A DNA stretch of 64,000 bases. Origin: Brucella tritici. GTDB lineage: Bacteria; Pseudomonadota; Alphaproteobacteria; Rhizobiales; Rhizobiaceae. The notes below the pieces were generated by a model that made no database searches, was not told the DNA's origin, and saw only the letters and a program-made list of their open reading frames with translations. The position numbers and the translations under genes were made by a program. Of the stretch, positions 18,290 through 25,477 are shown piece by piece. Location of the stretch: assembly GCF_902825325.1 (NCBI RefSeq), contig NZ_CADEAR010000015.1, positions 1 to 64,000 of the forward strand, written 5' to 3'. How positions within the stretch are numbered: the stretch's first letter is position 1; every line of letters begins with the position of its first letter.

Positions 18290-18317
18290 TTGACAAGCTG
18301 TCCGAACCGTCTATAAC
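18290..18317 (+). promoter_or_regulatory. Sigma-70 promoter of polyol operon
   Basis: TTGACA (18290-18295), a 16-base spacer, then TATAAC (18312-18317). This is close to consensus. It predicts a transcript starting near 18323-18326, hence a leader of about 100 bases before the MFS gene at 18428. Confidence 0.75.
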
Positions 18318-18323
18318 CGTAAA

Positions 18324-18404
18324 TGCAGACTGAAGATTTAAGACCATCTGCAAGGGTGGTCTTATTGCGTCTGGAATCCGGATAAGTCCTCTTGCAGATG
18401 TCTT
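18324..18404 (+). promoter_or_regulatory. Leader RNA with mutually exclusive helices (candidate GlpP target)
   Basis: Helix A: TAAGACCATC (18339-18348) pairs with GGTGGTCTTA (18355-18364), a 10-bp stem with a 6-base loop. Helix B: AAGA-C-CATCTGCAAG (18340-18354) pairs with CTTGCAGATGTCTT (18391-18404), 14 pairs with one bulge. B uses the left arm and loop of A, so the two cannot coexist. A third segment, TGCAGA (18324-18329), can also pair with TCTGCA (18347-18352). The operon ends with a GlpP-type antiterminator gene, a family that acts on leader RNA. Helix A lacks a clear U-run, so classic attenuation is not proven. The ribosome-binding site GGGAGGA is at 18414-18420. Confidence 0.6.
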
Positions 18405-18427
18405 AGCGACGTTGGGAGGACGCCGTA

Positions 18428-19843
18428 ATGCACGGTAGCAAAATAGCCCTGAGGGGCGTGCCGGATATTATTTCCTACATTGATGCGAATGACGGTATTC
18501 GAGGCCGCGCCGGTATTATCTGGTGGCTTGCCCTCGGTGGCCTGTTCCTTGATGCCTTCGCCAATTCGGCGCTGAGCGCAGGGCTTGGGCCGATGACACG
18601 CGATCTGGGACTGGATGCGGCGCAGGTCGCGCTGATGACATCCTTCGCTTCGTGGGTAGCGATTGCATTCAATCCGATTGGTGGCTGGATCGCCGACCGC
18701 TGGGGCCGCATGCGCCCGCTGGTCTTCGCAAAGTTCATCGCCCTCATCGGCGCGGTGCTGGTGATGACGGCCCATTCCTATGAAGTTATTCTTATGGGGC
18801 GCTTCTTCGTGGGTGCCGCTTACGGCATCGATTTTGCCATTGCGATGGCCGTGCTCGCCGAATTCACACCGGCGCGCCTGCGCAGCCGTCTCAACACCTG
18901 GCAGGGCATCTGGTACACAGCCGTTTGTACAAACGTGCTTCTGGCCATGTTGTTCTATAGCTGGGATGTCGGTGACTCGATCTGGCGCTATTCGGTCGCG
19001 GCAACCGGTGTCTTCGCTTTCGCGATCATGATGCTGCAGCTCGTCTTCATGGTTGAAAGCCCAATCTGGCTTGCCCGCAAGGAAAGGCTGGAAGAGGCCG
19101 CTCGTGCGATGACCCGTATCTATCATCGCGATTTCGTTGCCGCCCTGCCGGAAGACCGTTTGCCGGTTCTCAATCAGGCTCGCCGCGGCATTGCCAATGT
19201 TGCCCTGATTTTCCGCGGCATCTATCTGCCGCGCACCATTCTTGCCGCGACCGTCCAGATCGGGCAGTCGATCCAGTATTTTGCCGTGGGCTGGTACCTG
19301 CCGCTCATCAGTGCGGCGCTGTTCGGCAAGGATTTCCTCTATGCCATGCTGGGCACGCTGGTGTTCAACGTCTTCGGCATCATCGGCGGTTTCTCTTCGC
19401 CGGTCATCGGGCGCGTACTTGGCTTGCGCAAGGCTTCCGCCATCGGCTTCGGTGCGGTCTTCGTCATGCTGGTCATCATGGGGCTGTTCCATGACACCAT
19501 GCCGACCTGGCTTGCAGTGATCGTGCCTTCGCTGTTCATCCTGTTCCATTCTGGTGGTCCGGGCGCAAACGGCAAGAGCCTGTCGTCGCTCTCGTTCCGC
19601 AGCGAGCTGCGTGCAGGCGCCAACGGCATCATCGGTGCCCTCGGCGCCATGGGCGCGGCGCTTGGCCTTCTGGTTTTCCCGCTCTTCCGCGAGAATTACG
19701 GCCTCGGCCCGACGTTCCTGATCCTGTCGGTCGTTCCGCTGATTGCCTGCATCATCTGCTCGATCATTCAGTGGGACCCGACCCGTACCAAGGTCAGCCC
19801 GGATGACGAGCCGAATGCGCCGCAGTTCGAAGGCGACCGGTAA
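18428..19843 (+). CDS. MFS polyol/sugar permease
   Basis: 471 residues with about 12 membrane helices and the sugar-porter-like MFS layout. It has the loop 2-3 motif GGWIADRWGRMRP, a long N-terminal cytoplasmic segment (1-30) and a central cytoplasmic loop after TM6 carrying ESPIWLARKERLEEAARAM. It likely imports the substrate phosphorylated by the kinase encoded 14 bases downstream. It is the first gene of the operon, behind a consensus promoter and a structured leader; ATG at 18428 follows GGGAGGA. The substrate is unknown: glycerol, a longer polyol or a glycerol-phosphate-like compound would all fit the neighbouring enzymes. Confidence 0.85.
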   Translation: MHGSKIALRGVPDIISYIDANDGIRGRAGIIWWLALGGLFLDAFANSALSAGLGPMTRDLGLDAAQVALMTSFASWVAIAFNPIGGWIADRWGRMRPLVFAKFIALIGAVLVMTAHSYEVILMGRFFVGAAYGIDFAIAMAVLAEFTPARLRSRLNTWQGIWYTAVCTNVLLAMLFYSWDVGDSIWRYSVAATGVFAFAIMMLQLVFMVESPIWLARKERLEEAARAMTRIYHRDFVAALPEDRLPVLNQARRGIANVALIFRGIYLPRTILAATVQIGQSIQYFAVGWYLPLISAALFGKDFLYAMLGTLVFNVFGIIGGFSSPVIGRVLGLRKASAIGFGAVFVMLVIMGLFHDTMPTWLAVIVPSLFILFHSGGPGANGKSLSSLSFRSELRAGANGIIGALGAMGAALGLLVFPLFRENYGLGPTFLILSVVPLIACIICSIIQWDPTRTKVSPDDEPNAPQFEGDR

Positions 19844-19857
19844 CAACGGAGGATAAT

Positions 19858-21381
19858 GTGAACGGACGCAAACAGGCCATTCTGGCCATTGATGAAGGAA
19901 CGTCCGGAACCAGGGCCGCGCTTGTCGCGGCCGACGGTTCGGTCTCCGCCGTCAATTACACGACGCTTGCCGTCTCTTCCCCGCGTCACAACGTGGTGGA
20001 ACAGGACGCCGATGTTCTTTTGCAAAAGACCATCGAAGTGTGCGGCAAGACGATTGCCGCAGCGCGTGATGCTGGCGTGGAAATCGCTGCAATGGCAATC
20101 GCCACGCAGCGCGCGACCGGTGTTCTGTGGGATACGCAAACGGGTCGGGCGCTGGTCCCGGCCATGGTCTGGCAGGATTCGCGCTATGCAGAAGAGCTGA
20201 AACCGCTTGGGGCCATATGGGACGCGAAACTCGTGTCGCTTGCCGGGCGTCCTGTCGGCGGACGGGCGATCTATCTGTGGGCGGCGCGCCACATGCAGGA
20301 AACGCCCGCCGTGCGCGAGGCATGGAAGGCAAAAAGGCTTGCTTTCGGCACCGTCGACACCTGGTTGCTCTGGAACCTGTCCGAAGAACGCAAAGCCGTC
20401 ACCACGCCGACGAATGCGACCTCTGCCGGTGCCTATATTCTCGGTGAGAACCGCTATTTCACTGACTGGGTTGAGGCACAGGATTTTCCGCTGGAGCTGT
20501 TGCCCGAGCTGAAACAGGACGCTGACGATTTCGGTTATACGCGGCAGGATATTCTGGGTATCCGCGTGCCGATCAAGGCGTCCTGCGGTGATCAGCTGGG
20601 CGGTCTTGTCGGTCTTGGCTGTCACGATGCGGGGCAGGCCATGTGCGTGCATGGCACGGGCAGCTTCGTTGATCTTGTGATCGGAAAGCAGACGCCGAAA
20701 AATCCCGGCCTCTATGAAGCAACTTTCACCATGACGGCCTGGCGGAGCGAGAACCTCTCGCATTTCGCGGTCGAGACCTATGCCGCCACAACAGGATCAG
20801 CGCTCAACTGGCTTTGCAATGAAATGCGCTGGTTCGAGAATGCCAGGGAAATCAGCGAACTGGCTGCAACCGTGCCGTCTTCCGACGGCCTGTTCTTCAT
20901 GCCAACCCTGACGGGATTGCGCCAGCCGAATATCGTTCCGGATGGCCGGGCATCGCTGACCGGGCTTTCGATGGCACACAGCCGGGCGCATCTTGCTCAT
21001 GCCATTCTGGAAGGCATTGCCCATTCGGTCGTCTCCTGTGCGGAGGCGAGCTCGGAAGTGGCTGGCGTTCCTGTGCGGGAAGTGGTGGCAGGCGGAGGGC
21101 TTTCCTCCAGCGACACGCTGCTGCAATTGCAGGCTGATCTCAGTGGTGTGCCAGTAAGGCGCATGGCGGATCAGGATCGCGCGAGCCTGCGGGGCACCGC
21201 GTTTCTGGCAGGTAGCGATGGCTTGCTCTGGAGCGACCTTGCGGAAGCCCGCGCCACGCTGCCCGAAGGCAATCTTTTCATCCCCAAGACCAGCGAAGCG
21301 GAAAGACAGGACCGCAGAGCGCGATGGCACGCCCTCACGGATGAGGAAGTCGCACGCGTCCGATCCGGTCATTATGAATAA
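19858..21381 (+). CDS. FGGY-family polyol kinase (glycerol kinase-like)
   Basis: 507 residues, the usual FGGY length. GTG at 19858 follows CGGAGGA. It phosphorylates a hydroxymethyl group of a sugar or polyol with ATP. Signature elements are AIDEGTSGTRAALVAADG (phosphate 1), the substrate loop ATQRATGVLWD, MVWQDSRYAEEL, TNATSAGAYIL, the adenosine region HGTGSFVDL, and the second FGGY motif GGGLSSSDTLLQLQADLSGVPV. Glycerol kinase motifs are recognisable but diverged (EGTSGTRA for DQGTTSSRA), so the substrate may not be glycerol. It sits between the permease and a GlpD-like dehydrogenase and should supply that enzyme's phosphorylated substrate. Confidence 0.88.
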   Translation: MNGRKQAILAIDEGTSGTRAALVAADGSVSAVNYTTLAVSSPRHNVVEQDADVLLQKTIEVCGKTIAAARDAGVEIAAMAIATQRATGVLWDTQTGRALVPAMVWQDSRYAEELKPLGAIWDAKLVSLAGRPVGGRAIYLWAARHMQETPAVREAWKAKRLAFGTVDTWLLWNLSEERKAVTTPTNATSAGAYILGENRYFTDWVEAQDFPLELLPELKQDADDFGYTRQDILGIRVPIKASCGDQLGGLVGLGCHDAGQAMCVHGTGSFVDLVIGKQTPKNPGLYEATFTMTAWRSENLSHFAVETYAATTGSALNWLCNEMRWFENAREISELAATVPSSDGLFFMPTLTGLRQPNIVPDGRASLTGLSMAHSRAHLAHAILEGIAHSVVSCAEASSEVAGVPVREVVAGGGLSSSDTLLQLQADLSGVPVRRMADQDRASLRGTAFLAGSDGLLWSDLAEARATLPEGNLFIPKTSEAERQDRRARWHALTDEEVARVRSGHYE

Positions 21382-21393
21382 ACAGGAGTTGAA

Positions 21394-23073
21394 ATGCTGA
21401 ATCTGCGCTCCCGGCGCGCGGACAAGGATCGCGCCCGGATGATCCGCACCGAGCCGCTGAGGCTGAACCGGTCGGAACAGGAAGACCGTCTTGCCACTGA
21501 AACCTACGATATTCTGATCGTCGGTGGCGGCGTGACCGGTGCTTATTGCGCCTTTGACGCAAGTCTGCGCGGCTTTCGTGTTGCGCTGGTTGAGAAGGAT
21601 GATTTTGCATCCGGCACGTCGTCAAAATCCTCCAAGATGGTGCATGGCGGCTTGCGCTATATCGAGCAGGGCAATCTTGGCCTGGTTCGTCATTCCCTGC
21701 TGGAGCGCCAGCGCCTGCGCCGCAATGCAAGCCATCTGGTGCAGCGCCTGCCGTTTCTCTTTCCCATTCTGGAACGGGATGGTGTGTTCGATTCACGCTT
21801 CGCCAAGGCGTTTGAAGGCTTGCTCTGGACATATGATCTGGCCGGCGGCTGGCGCGAAGGCATTCTGCACCAGAAGCTGACCGCTGCCGAAGTGCTCGCC
21901 CACTGCCCGACCTTCAAGGACGAATATCTGCGCGGCGGCCTCATGTATTTCGACGCCCGTGTCGATGATGCTCGCCTGACGCTGGCGCTTGCCCGCTCTG
22001 CCGGTTTTCATGGGGCAACGGTCCTCAACCATTCGAAGGTCGCCGAGATTACCCGCAGTTCGGGCCGGGTCGATGGCGCTATCGTTCAGACGGTCGAGGG
22101 CAAGGAAATCCGCGTGCGCGCCAAGACCGTCATCATGGCGACTGGTGTATGGCTGCGCGACTGGATGGGGCTTGGCAAGGATGGCGAAAAGCCGTTGCAT
22201 GTGCGCCCGGCCAAGGGCGTTCACGTCGCTATCCCCTGGCTGAAAATCCGCAACGACTGCACGGTGACGGTGCCTGTACCGGGGCGCAGCCGCCGTGCGA
22301 CCATCACGCGCTGGGGCAATGTCTCCTATCTCGGCACCACCGACGAGGATTATCAGGGCGACCTCGATGATGTGCATTGCACGCGCCGCGAGCTTGATTT
22401 TCTGATCGAGGGCGCGTGCAGCGCGCTCAATATCGACCTGACGCCGGATGATGTCGTCGGCAGCATTGCCGGTTGCCGTCCGCTGGTCGCTGCCTCGTCA
22501 GGCGGCAGCACCATGGATGTCAAGCGAGACCATTCCGTGCATGTTGCGCCGGATGGCCTTGTCACGATTGTGGGCGGCAAGCTGACGACGTCGCGCCACA
22601 TGGCCGAACAGACGGTGGATGCTGCTGCGAAAGTTCTCGGCGATCGTCGTCGCTGTACCACGAAAAAGGCATTTCTGCTGGGCGCTGCCGGTTATGACGC
22701 GCAGGCAATCGTGGCCTCCGGCGGCGTGGAAGCGCATCTGGGCGAACGTTACGGCACGGAATCGCGCTTTGTCAGCGATCTGATGGCTGCCCGTCCTGAA
22801 CTGGCCGAGCCCATTGTGGAAGGACTGCCCTATACCGGCGGCGAAGTCGTCTATGCCGCCCGGCACGAACTTGCCCGAACCATCGATGACGTGCTGTCGC
22901 GTCGTATGCGTGCCCGCCTGATGGCGCGCGATGCCTCCGCCCGCGCTGCCGCAAAAGTTGGCGCCTTGCTGGGTGAGGAACTTGGTCTTCCCCAGGCCGA
23001 AATCGACCGTCAGGTCGCCGCCTATGTGGCCGCGACCGAAAAAGAAAAATCCATTCTCACAGGAGCGAACTGA
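21394..23073 (+). CDS. GlpD-like FAD-dependent polyol-phosphate dehydrogenase
   Basis: 559-residue flavoprotein of the glycerol-3-phosphate dehydrogenase (GlpD/EryB) family. The FAD-binding motif ILIVGGGVTGAYCAFDASLRG lies about 39-59, followed by the family signature SGTSSKSSKMVHGGLRYIEQGNLGLV. A substrate-domain segment GCRPLV and the C-terminal DAO helical domain complete it. It should oxidise a sn-glycerol-3-phosphate-like alcohol to the ketone and pass electrons to the quinone pool at the inner membrane face. A non-conserved N-terminal extension of about 35 residues precedes the FAD motif. It lies 12 bases after the kinase gene. The product would be dihydroxyacetone phosphate if the substrate is glycerol phosphate; other polyol phosphates are possible. 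Confidence 0.88.
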   Translation: MLNLRSRRADKDRARMIRTEPLRLNRSEQEDRLATETYDILIVGGGVTGAYCAFDASLRGFRVALVEKDDFASGTSSKSSKMVHGGLRYIEQGNLGLVRHSLLERQRLRRNASHLVQRLPFLFPILERDGVFDSRFAKAFEGLLWTYDLAGGWREGILHQKLTAAEVLAHCPTFKDEYLRGGLMYFDARVDDARLTLALARSAGFHGATVLNHSKVAEITRSSGRVDGAIVQTVEGKEIRVRAKTVIMATGVWLRDWMGLGKDGEKPLHVRPAKGVHVAIPWLKIRNDCTVTVPVPGRSRRATITRWGNVSYLGTTDEDYQGDLDDVHCTRRELDFLIEGACSALNIDLTPDDVVGSIAGCRPLVAASSGGSTMDVKRDHSVHVAPDGLVTIVGGKLTTSRHMAEQTVDAAAKVLGDRRRCTTKKAFLLGAAGYDAQAIVASGGVEAHLGERYGTESRFVSDLMAARPELAEPIVEGLPYTGGEVVYAARHELARTIDDVLSRRMRARLMARDASARAAAKVGALLGEELGLPQAEIDRQVAAYVAATEKEKSILTGAN

Positions 23074-23075
23074 AC

Positions 23076-24626
23076 ATGATCAGCAAGGAAGCCATCAAGC
23101 GCGGTTACAATCGCGGAAATTATGTCGTCGGCGCCCCGACCCAGCCGCATTATGCCGGTAGCATCAAGGAAATCGGCACCGAGGCCGATCTGGCTCAAAA
23201 CGCCGTTTCGGTGGATGCTGCTCTCGTCGAGAAGCTGCAGGGCGTTGCGGACGAAGTTCTGACCGCGCGCGAAGATCTCGTTGTGAACACCCGCGACTGG
23301 TGGGCGCGCACGATGGTCGCGGAAACGGGCGGAAAGCCTGCAACGGTTGACGGCGTATTCGTTCGCGTTTCGACGGTGGAGCAGGTGCAGGCCGTCATGC
23401 GCCTTGCGTATGAAGCCAAGGTTCCGGTTACTGTTTCTGCAGGGCGCTCCAACGTTACGGGCGCGGCGCTGCCGCTGCGCGGCGGTATCGTTCTCGATGT
23501 CTGCAATCTCAACCGTCTTGTCAGCTTTGATGCGGACAGCCAGATCGTTGAAGTTGAAGCTGGTATGTTCGGCGATATTTTCGAGGAAACGATCCAGCGC
23601 GACTATGGCATGACCATGGGGCACTGGCCATCTTCATACGGTATCAGCACCGTGGGAGGCTGGATCGCCTGCCGCGGCGCAGGCCAGCTTTCCACGCGCT
23701 ACGGCAAGATCGAGGATATGGTCTACGGCATGGAAGTCGTGCTGGCCGACGGTTCGCTGGTGACGGTTGGAAACTATGCCCGCGCAGCGATCGGCCCCGA
23801 TCTGCAGCAGATCTTCATCGGTTCGGAAGGCACGCTCGGCATCATCGTGAAGGCGCGCCTGAAACTGCATCGCCTGCCGGACTATGCTCGCGCGATCGCT
23901 TATGGCTTCAAGAGCTTCGGCATCGGTCTGGAAGCCTGCCGCCGTATCATGCAGGGCGGTGCCAATCCGGCAGCTTTGCGTCTTTACGACGAGCTGGAAA
24001 GTGGTGTGCAGTTCGGTTTGCCGGAAAGCAACGTGCTGCTGATTGCCGATGAAGGCGCGAAGGAAATGGTCGATGCCGTTATGGCGATCAGCGAAAGGGT
24101 TTGCGCCGAACTCGGTGACAAGCTTGATGGCGACGCGATCTTCGAGAAATGGCTCGATACGCGCTATCTGACCGGCAAGAGTGCGGAGGGCTTCAAGCGC
24201 AGCCCCGGTTTTGTTGCCGATACGCTGGAAATGACCGGATGCTGGCGCGATCTGCCTGCGATCTATGATGAGGTGGTTGCCGCCATCAATGCAGTGCCGG
24301 GTACACTCGCCGGTTCGGCGCACCAGTCACATGCCTATGTCGACGGCGCCTGCCTCTATTTCTCGCTGCGCGGTGACGTGGACGTGGAAAAACGCGCTGA
24401 ATGGTATCGTGCTGCATGGGATGCTGCCAATGCCGTTCTAATCAAGTATGGTGCAGCATTGAGCCATCACCACGGCGTCGGACTGCTTCGCGCGCCTTAC
24501 ATGAAGGACGCTCTCGGATCGGCATTTCCGTTGCTGGAAACGGTGAAGAAGGCGCTCGACCCGGACAACCTGCTTAACCCCGGCAAGCTCGGACTTTCGC
24601 TCGACATGCCAAGAGACGGAAAATGA
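23076..24626 (+). CDS. FAD-linked oxidase, alkyl-DHAP synthase-like
   Basis: 516 residues of the VAO/FAD-linked oxidase family. The PCMH-type FAD domain (about 95-275) has VPVTVSAGRSNVTGAALPLRGGIVLD, FVR-containing strands and GSEGTLGIIVKARLKLH. The cap domain and C-terminus (SHHHGVGLLRAPYM, DPDNLLNPGKLGL) follow; the HHH motif matches alkyl-dihydroxyacetonephosphate synthases. In eukaryotes that enzyme makes ether lipids; here a dehydrogenase acting on an operon intermediate (a 2-hydroxyacid or sugar phosphate) is more likely. It lies 2 bases after the GlpD-like gene, so translation is coupled. The exact reaction is unknown. Confidence 0.82.
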   Translation: MISKEAIKRGYNRGNYVVGAPTQPHYAGSIKEIGTEADLAQNAVSVDAALVEKLQGVADEVLTAREDLVVNTRDWWARTMVAETGGKPATVDGVFVRVSTVEQVQAVMRLAYEAKVPVTVSAGRSNVTGAALPLRGGIVLDVCNLNRLVSFDADSQIVEVEAGMFGDIFEETIQRDYGMTMGHWPSSYGISTVGGWIACRGAGQLSTRYGKIEDMVYGMEVVLADGSLVTVGNYARAAIGPDLQQIFIGSEGTLGIIVKARLKLHRLPDYARAIAYGFKSFGIGLEACRRIMQGGANPAALRLYDELESGVQFGLPESNVLLIADEGAKEMVDAVMAISERVCAELGDKLDGDAIFEKWLDTRYLTGKSAEGFKRSPGFVADTLEMTGCWRDLPAIYDEVVAAINAVPGTLAGSAHQSHAYVDGACLYFSLRGDVDVEKRAEWYRAAWDAANAVLIKYGAALSHHHGVGLLRAPYMKDALGSAFPLLETVKKALDPDNLLNPGKLGLSLDMPRDGK

Positions 24627-24630
24627 TGGA

Positions 24631-25236
24631 ATGACATTGGACAGAACGATCGGTGAGCGGCTTTTACGGGCGCCAGTCATGGCAACGCTCTACGGCGTCG
24701 AGAATCTTCAGGCATTTCTGGACAGCAAGGCGGAAGTGGGCATCGTTGCCAACATCGCACTGCGCCATGTGGCTGAAGTGCTGAATGCGCTGAAGAAAAG
24801 CAACAAGCTGATCGTTCTGAACATCGACAGTTGCGAAGGCCTGTCGCAGGACAAGGGAGCTATCGAGTTTCTTGCCGAGATTGGCATTTCGGTTCTGCTG
24901 TCGACCCGCGTTCCAACAATCCAGAAGGCCGCGCAATGCGGCCTCCTGACCATGCAGAAGGTCTTTGTTACCGACCGCTCCACATGGCCCCGCAGCCTGA
25001 AGGCGATCTCGCAAAGCGCACCCAATCTGGTGCAGATCATGCCATCGCCGATGCTGGGTTATCTCTCGGTGGAGGACAAGCGCCGCCTGCCGCCTATCGT
25101 GGCGTCAGGATTCATCTGCAACGAAAGCGATGTCGGTACAGCGATGACACAGGGTGCAATCGCTGTTTCCTCAAGCAACAAGTCGCTCTGGAACTATTCC
25201 GGTGCTTCGGCCTTGCGCGGGAAGGGAAAAAGCTAG
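24631..25236 (+). CDS. glpP: GlpP-type glycerol-3-phosphate-responsive antiterminator
   Basis: 201 residues matching the GlpP family along its whole length: FLDSKAEVGIVANIALRHVAEV, VLNIDSCEGLSQDKGAIEFLAEIGISVLLSTR, QKAAQCGLLTMQKVFVTDRS, APNLVQIMPSPML, PIVASGFICNESDVGTAMTQGAIAVSSSNKSLW. It is a TIM-barrel-like phosphate-binding fold. In Bacillus GlpP binds G3P and glpD leader RNA to prevent termination or stabilise mRNA. Here it closes an operon whose own leader can switch between two helices (18324-18404), suggesting autoregulation by a phosphorylated intermediate. Four bases separate it from the oxidase stop. GlpP is best known from Firmicutes, so its role here is inferred. Confidence 0.85.
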   Translation: MTLDRTIGERLLRAPVMATLYGVENLQAFLDSKAEVGIVANIALRHVAEVLNALKKSNKLIVLNIDSCEGLSQDKGAIEFLAEIGISVLLSTRVPTIQKAAQCGLLTMQKVFVTDRSTWPRSLKAISQSAPNLVQIMPSPMLGYLSVEDKRRLPPIVASGFICNESDVGTAMTQGAIAVSSSNKSLWNYSGASALRGKGKS

Positions 25237-25415
25237 ATTAGGCTGCTGTGAACTAAATTGTTGCACGACCTTGTTTTGAACAAGATGTGCACCTATATGG
25301 CTGTCATAGGCATTGCTTAAGAGCGCTGGAACGCGTCTGTCGCTCGCAATAGCCTTCATCGCTTGATGCTTTTGACCACGGATGTACTGGCACTGGTAGG
25401 AAAGCGATGATCAGG

Positions 25416-25447
25416 AAGGTCGGTGCGTTTTCGCCCCGGCCTTTTTT
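25416..25447 (+). terminator. Rho-independent terminator of polyol operon
   Basis: AAGGTCGG pairs with CCGGCCTT (one G-T), inner GCG/CGC, then T6. It lies about 180 bases downstream of the GlpP stop; the bases in between hold no convincing gene. Confidence 0.7.
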
Positions 25448-25477
25448 GTTGTCTGCAGTTTCGCGAGAATGAAGCAA

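Follow-up and report, generated by a model that had tools for sequence, protein, structure and literature searches.

The window, by which we mean the whole 64,000-nucleotide stretch of Brucella tritici DNA that was analysed, contains an operon of five genes on the forward strand. The last of these encodes a protein of the GlpP family, and the features are as follows:

18428-19843, forward strand: MFS transporter, first gene of the operon (Pfam MFS_1, Sugar_tr)
19858-21381, forward strand: FGGY kinase, glycerol-kinase-like, under the GlpK equivalog cut-off
21394-23073, forward strand: GlpD-like FAD dehydrogenase (Pfam DAO, DAO_C; scoring under the cut-off of each NCBIfam glycerol-3-phosphate dehydrogenase model listed)
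23076-24626, forward strand: GlcD-like FAD-linked oxidase; its match to the oxidase in a ygc-type cluster of an enterobacterium is 29%
24631-25236, forward strand: GlpP-family protein, last gene of the operon (PF04309, 157.7 bits; PDB relative 3kts, E 1.5e-16)

Our guess from the gene families is that the substrate of the operon is a polyol. An alphaproteobacterial ar35 sRNA (RF02346, 137 bits) lies at window positions 25306-25450 on the forward strand, ∼70 nt 3' of the glpP stop codon.

Relatives of the operon were gathered by a scan with the window GlpP, of which the best 80 of 106 were used; the search is thus GlpP-anchored. These 80 loci belong to alphaproteobacteria, betaproteobacteria, and actinobacteria. 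All five genes were matched in 75 of them, two of which (L063 and L071) gave partial segments, and glpP stands last; together with the PF04309 match, this bears out the placement of a GlpP-family protein at the end of the operon in the preliminary description. A recognisable mfs gene was present in 77 of the 80 loci, and the three without a match (L055, L060, and L065) were dropped. Two Herbaspirillum loci (L059 and L061) hold a shorter mfs-kinase-glpP set, 47 to 49% identical, in which no match to glpD or the oxidase was found and the leader is kept. Some loci carry peculiarities of their own. In Brucella cytisi (L071), the best matches to mfs, the kinase, glpD, and glpP are partial, as if the operon or the sequence were broken, and the leader is intact. 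A SAM-IV riboswitch lies on the opposite strand just 5' of the operon leader in L066 (3354-3468, reverse strand), and the operon's oxidase gene at G420:C7:10709-12259 has one in-frame TGA.

The sequence ahead of the mfs gene contains the following leader features:

18290-18295 and 18312-18317, forward strand: promoter, TTGACA and TATAAC with a 16-nt spacer, read from the sequence; +1 expected near 18324
18324-18352, forward strand: AT hairpin, putative GlpP target (stem 18324-18329 with 18347-18352), from pairing counts and a shared design
18330-18346, forward strand: AT loop, 17 nt, CUGAAGAUUUAAGACCA, with two AGA repeats
18339-18348 with 18355-18364, forward strand: P2, proximal hairpin of 10 bp, which excludes AT
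18340-18354 with 18391-18404 (box2), forward strand: H2, long helix of 14 pairs with one bulged C, which excludes P2, AT, and P3
18386-18393 with 18414-18421, forward strand: P3, hairpin burying the Shine-Dalgarno (SD) sequence, from folding of 49 leaders
18414-18420, forward strand: SD sequence GGGAGGA, 7 nt 5' of the ATG at 18428, read from the sequence

The proximal hairpin and the 14-pair helix that had been proposed earlier are both present, and the folding of the RNA from 18318 to 18440 is more stable than that of 199 out of 200 dinucleotide shuffles (z = -2.65). A third copy of the complementary hexamer, also noted earlier, does occur at 18324-18329 (TGCAGA, complementary to TCTGCA at 18347-18352); its role has changed, as it now forms the 5' arm of a separate hairpin, AT, whose 3' arm overlaps P2. 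The -35 element of the promoter recurs among relatives. Of 61 proteobacterial leaders, near-identical ones included, 58 have TTGAC at 49 to 54 nt 5' of the P2 AGAC, and 11 of 17 actinobacterial leaders have a -35 element no more than 75 nt from the P2 anchor. A strict promoter scan of the window called no promoter at the leader because its -10 rule requires a final T. A scan of the window for intrinsic terminators found none at the leader site. In the window and the 13 loci scanned, no Rfam family was matched at the leader at gathering score, and an E-value scan of the leader alone returned chance-level matches only.

Conservation of the helices and linkage to glpP

All 78 leaders, those of the window and of the 77 loci with a recognisable mfs, carry the P2 anchor (5' arm plus loop), as located with search patterns that were composed after looking at the sequences. 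For pairing counts, alignment A1 took in 49 distinct proteobacterial leaders from the 52 prepared (L029, L036, and L041 were omitted for their long linkers), and alignment A3 comprised 32 leaders hand-picked from 69 prepared. In cell counts, which here and below count related sequences many times, P2 is paired in 93.1% of 538 cells from the 49 proteobacterial leaders, with 32 double-sided cells. The eight-pair core of H2, between the P2 loop and box2, is paired in 99.7% of 392 cells from the same leaders, with 12 double-sided cells (UA to CG in 10 and AU to UA in 2). The AT stem is paired in 97.4% of 155 cells from alphaproteobacterial, betaproteobacterial, and actinobacterial cores, again with 12 double-sided cells.

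None of 500 shuffles reached the paired-cell, double-sided-cell, or covariation values of P2, H2, or AT. A coarser count, that of pairs with any double-sided change, is unexceptional, being reached by 391, 45, and 204 of 500 shuffles for P2, H2, and AT, respectively. Inside the proteobacteria alone, the AT stem is 94.2% paired (17 of 500 shuffles as high) and has zero double-sided changes. When aligned, actinobacterial H2 is weak (72.5% of cells; 8 of 500 shuffles). Complementarity between the loop and downstream sequence, measured free of any alignment, has a mean z of -3.4 in proteobacteria (40 of 49 leaders at p ≤ 0.05) and of -3.2 in actinobacteria (14 of 17). The P2 and H2 pairing counts agree with the earlier proposal of mutually exclusive helices, which are kept and covary in orthologous operons; a lack of conservation or covariation, named there as the outcome that would speak against the switch, was looked for in orthologous leaders and did not appear.

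Leader and glpP also occur together in surveyed genomes. GlpP is rare in this survey, with matches over the family cut-off in 2 of the 240 alphaproteobacterial genomes and in 6 of the 349 from Pseudomonadota, and five of these six exceed 100 bits. The co-occurrence count took these five, the sixth genome (G409) reaching 30 bits only with neighbours. The leader model R2 matched 3 of the 349 Pseudomonadota genomes, all among the five with GlpP and each ∼6.3 kb 5' of it, a count that is confounded, as one operon holds both elements and R2 was built from such leaders. The other two (G044 and G391) have GlpP without an R2 match. In the genome of the window, which its nearest relatives mark as Ochrobactrum-like, the GlpP family and R2 have one match each, the latter being this leader. 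As a control, we sought the operon without GlpP in the 349 genomes and found none at high identity; the search gave one 37% oxidase relative (G373). A core model, R1, was tried as a test in 198 actinobacterial genomes and set aside as too short, having returned only the G001 leader, itself a row of the model, and a weak match in G660, a genome with no GlpP match. Enterococcal GlpD relatives (L119 and L120) were likewise discarded, the flank read being the wrong one for a leader.

Hairpins of the AT type beside other glpP genes

A shared design recurs near other glpP genes, consisting of a stem, a loop of 11 to 17 nt with two AGA repeats, and a 3' arm that overlaps a terminator hairpin. In Listeria, Paenibacillus, E. 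coli, and others, records with glpP contain AT-type hairpins followed by true terminators, though some glpP loci have none. A strict form of the motif (GAGA-N1-5-GAGA and then a terminator) was searched for in 4.31 Mb of two-strand sequence, some of it overlapping, and gave 20 matches, 17 of them distinct. We take 14 of them to be leaders. All 14 sit in records or genomes that bear glpP, a nearness that is partly by construction, as the loci had been chosen for glpP or lay in records holding it. None of the 14 falls inside a same-strand open reading frame of at least 150 amino acids, and for 13 of them the next reading frame begins 6 to 339 nt downstream. Matches at L118 4300, L015 3360, and L088 5904 were judged to be chance.

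The genes 3' of the strict leaders include glpD (L118 and L082), glpP (L082), FGGY kinases (L174 and L160), MFS transporters (L084, L173, and L089), and SDR genes (L084 and L173, and L085 by annotation); in L170, one unidentified reading frame follows. The hairpin also lies 5' of HAD-type genes near glpP, at L086 8647 on the forward strand (annotated) and at L095 1348 on the reverse strand (by eye), which suggests that these genes are further members of the regulon.

Among the Bacillota, E. coli, and Streptomyces records, the strict motif was judged real in 6 of 10. The sequence retrieved for the remaining four (Planococcus L083, Listeria NZ_LR134403 L087, E. gilvus L088, and Vescimonas L090) lacks it; in the Planococcus stretch, a terminator with AGAGAGACC was seen by eye. 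At actinobacterial glpP loci of the classical type (18 fetched, several of them short), it is present in 2 (L160 and L170) and absent from 16. One locus, L168, resembles the terminator type and fails the strict pattern, and in L155 and L158 no clear element was seen by eye 5' of glpP. In the alphaproteobacterium G044, the upstream flank of glpP has no element, and one of the terminator type lies between glpP and a kinase gene. The ygcP cluster of E. coli contains two terminator-type AGA..AGA hairpins (L084 16298, forward strand, and 16154, reverse strand; also in L179). They lie ahead of ygcW and yqcE, at a distance of 5.6 kb from ygcP in L084, and this leader segment is matched in 5,018 of 5,426 E. 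coli genomes.

The loops of the window type carry AGA..AGA and not the strict GAGA..GAGA, so it is by topology and position that they can be related to the terminator type. From sequence comparison, we read AT as the antiterminator of a GlpP-family system, with predicted binding of the protein. We are inclined, a little more than not, to see one GlpP-family RNA design in at least three phyla, with a short stem, an 11- to 17-nt purine-rich loop of AGAY-N2-4-AGA, and a 3' arm competing with the next hairpin. Such a design would give E. coli YgcP two leader targets in its own cluster, and in a diverged alpha- and betaproteobacterial clade of GlpP it would drive a translational rather than a terminator platform.

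Access to the Shine-Dalgarno sequence and the sign of control

In the 49 proteobacterial leaders, the SD sequence is paired with a mean probability of 0.91 versus 0.64 in shuffles, and the value is higher than that of shuffles in 42 of them. Constrained folding of the window gave -39.0 kcal/mol for P2 with P3 (SD paired 0.96) and -36.6 kcal/mol for H2, in which the SD is predicted to be exposed (0.02). The same exposure is predicted for an Arthrobacter leader (L069), with -42.2 kcal/mol for P2 and -42.4 for H2 and SD pairing of 0.74 versus 0.00. In Aureimonas (L009; -33.2 versus -33.6 kcal/mol), both folds leave the SD largely free (0.24 and 0.10); the value for this leader in the 49-leader survey is 0.98, but it was scored on another GGAG. 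Four betaproteobacterial leaders were folded as well: H2 comes out 10 to 15 kcal/mol worse than P2, with the SD paired at 0.31 to 0.84. At that cost, and with the SD not clearly freed, the pairing of the P2 loop with box2 in these leaders would need to take the form of a loop contact.

The preliminary description had left the mechanism as rho-dependent, translational, or based on mRNA stability; burial of the SD in P3 and its exposure in H2 favour the translational option. A stretch of at least five T in 8 nt, which includes part of the stem, occurs in 3 of 49 proteobacterial leaders versus 11 of 17 actinobacterial ones. In the alpha- and betaproteobacterial leaders, the terminator appears to have been lost and an SD-burying hairpin is present, which would place control at ribosome access. 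The SD region reads GGAGAC in 25 and GGAGG in 22 of the 49 proteobacterial leaders. Pairing of the P2 3' arm with the SD was considered for some betaproteobacteria and dropped, as the SD region is too poorly conserved. The SD region of Cupriavidus (CAGA..GAUAAGGAGACC) resembles the AT arm and loop and is possibly a second protein site; this likeness is not conserved in Burkholderia or Delftia.

We propose, with a probability of about 0.6, that the leader works as a GlpP antitermination-type switch in which control has shifted away from ending transcription and onto ribosome access. The transcript would start at or beside the AT hairpin, and the GlpP encoded by the last gene of the operon, holding a phosphorylated ligand, would bind the purine-rich AT loop (AGAY-N3-AGA). 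As AT occupies bases of both P2 and H2, its formation would decide the downstream fold. In its absence, the choice would lie between P2 with P3, in which the SD is buried, and H2, in which P3 is broken and the SD is free. By analogy with Bacillus, we hold activation to be the somewhat likelier sign of control, with AT removing P2 and the contact of P2 with the P3 loop. The suggestion of a GlpP-controlled leader in an alphaproteobacterium stands insofar as a conserved switch accompanies a terminal glpP; the switch is not peculiar to one alphaproteobacterium, being found in betaproteobacteria and actinobacteria as well.

The SD remains paired when AT is enforced (0.96 in the window, 0.97 in L012, and 0.33 to 0.98 across seven leaders), so AT by itself is not enough to expose it, and control could instead be repressive. 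GlpP on AT would then block H2 and leave P3 to bury the SD, and ligand would release GlpP and allow H2 to free it. The near-complete freeing of the SD by H2 in the window and L069 fits this alternative, as does the cost of H2 relative to P2, which is at most 2.4 kcal/mol in the window, L009, and L069. Repression would nevertheless be the opposite of the activating role reported for B. subtilis GlpP in PMC9604022 and PMC7430163, and it runs contrary to the terminator-type leaders, in which formation of AT has to turn expression on; we consider it unlikely. Far less probable is a protein-independent riboswitch, in which the leader itself binds a metabolite and GlpP is a passenger. The strong conservation of sequence and structure across two phyla would suit it, but other glpP genes, with different operons, have the same loop design next to them, Herbaspirillum has lost two operon genes yet keeps both leader and glpP, and no Rfam riboswitch is found at the leader. 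Least probable is that P2 serves mainly as a transcript stabiliser or Rho-dependent attenuator without an SD switch, which would accord with the additional stabilisation of glpD mRNA by GlpP in B. subtilis (described in PMC7430163, and named in the title of Glatz 1996, which PMC3997798 and PMC9604022 cite) but leaves the conservation of P3 and of box2 at the SD unexplained.

The diverged GlpP and known systems

Returning to the preferred switch controlled by GlpP, the window protein groups by alignment with proteins 40 to 75% identical to it (93 to 99% in Ochrobactrum) and is only 21 to 28% identical to classical GlpP. At the position of the LPG found in most classical members, its clade carries MP[SAW]P; it also has ASG in place of AGG, and ASG is likewise seen in two enterococcal proteins. 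As these segments presumably form the walls of the ligand pocket, the protein may bind something other than glycerol-3-phosphate.

We regard the AT design as a candidate cross-phylum target motif of GlpP and the window leader as a candidate variant of GlpP leader control. None of the open-access matches listed describes this leader or an RNA motif for GlpP that is shared across phyla. GlpP action has been described in B. subtilis (PMC9604022, PMC7430163); if our reading is true, RNA control of the GlpP type extends to proteobacteria, and sequences can be searched for the RNA motif that GlpP targets. YgcP, the GlpP homologue of E. coli, would gain two predicted targets, with the DNA present in most E. 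coli genomes as counted above, and one RNA element would have both terminator and ribosome-access outputs inside one protein clade.

Translational riboswitches that sequester the SD share the output; here the regulator appears to be a protein, and no known aptamer was matched. Antitermination by BglG/LicT (RAT), ANTAR, and HutP likewise employs alternative RNA structures stabilised by protein, with other protein families and RNA targets. Closer is the E. coli ygcP cluster, which has a GlpP homologue, an FGGY kinase, an MFS transporter, an FAD oxidase, and hairpins with AGA..AGA loops before ygcW and yqcE; unlike the window leader, both of its leaders end in T-run terminators.

The closest comparison is with GlpP antitermination at the glpD, glpFK, and glpT leaders of B. 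subtilis, for which we used leaders of Listeria and Paenibacillus rather than the B. subtilis sequence. According to PMC7430163 and PMC9604022, B. subtilis GlpP binds glycerol-3-phosphate and acts on an antiterminator or terminator, the ligand-bound protein binding the antiterminator (PMC7430163). Common to both systems are a PF04309 regulator, in the window present and linked, and an antiterminator that excludes a second hairpin, here the putative antiterminator AT (18324-18352) against P2 (18339-18364). Glp-type targets may be a further likeness, the window having a GlpK-like kinase and a GlpD-like dehydrogenase that are both below equivalog cut-offs. The second hairpin of the window is not a U-run intrinsic terminator; the leader has an SD-burying hairpin and a helix between the P2 loop and box2, and the regulator is diverged.
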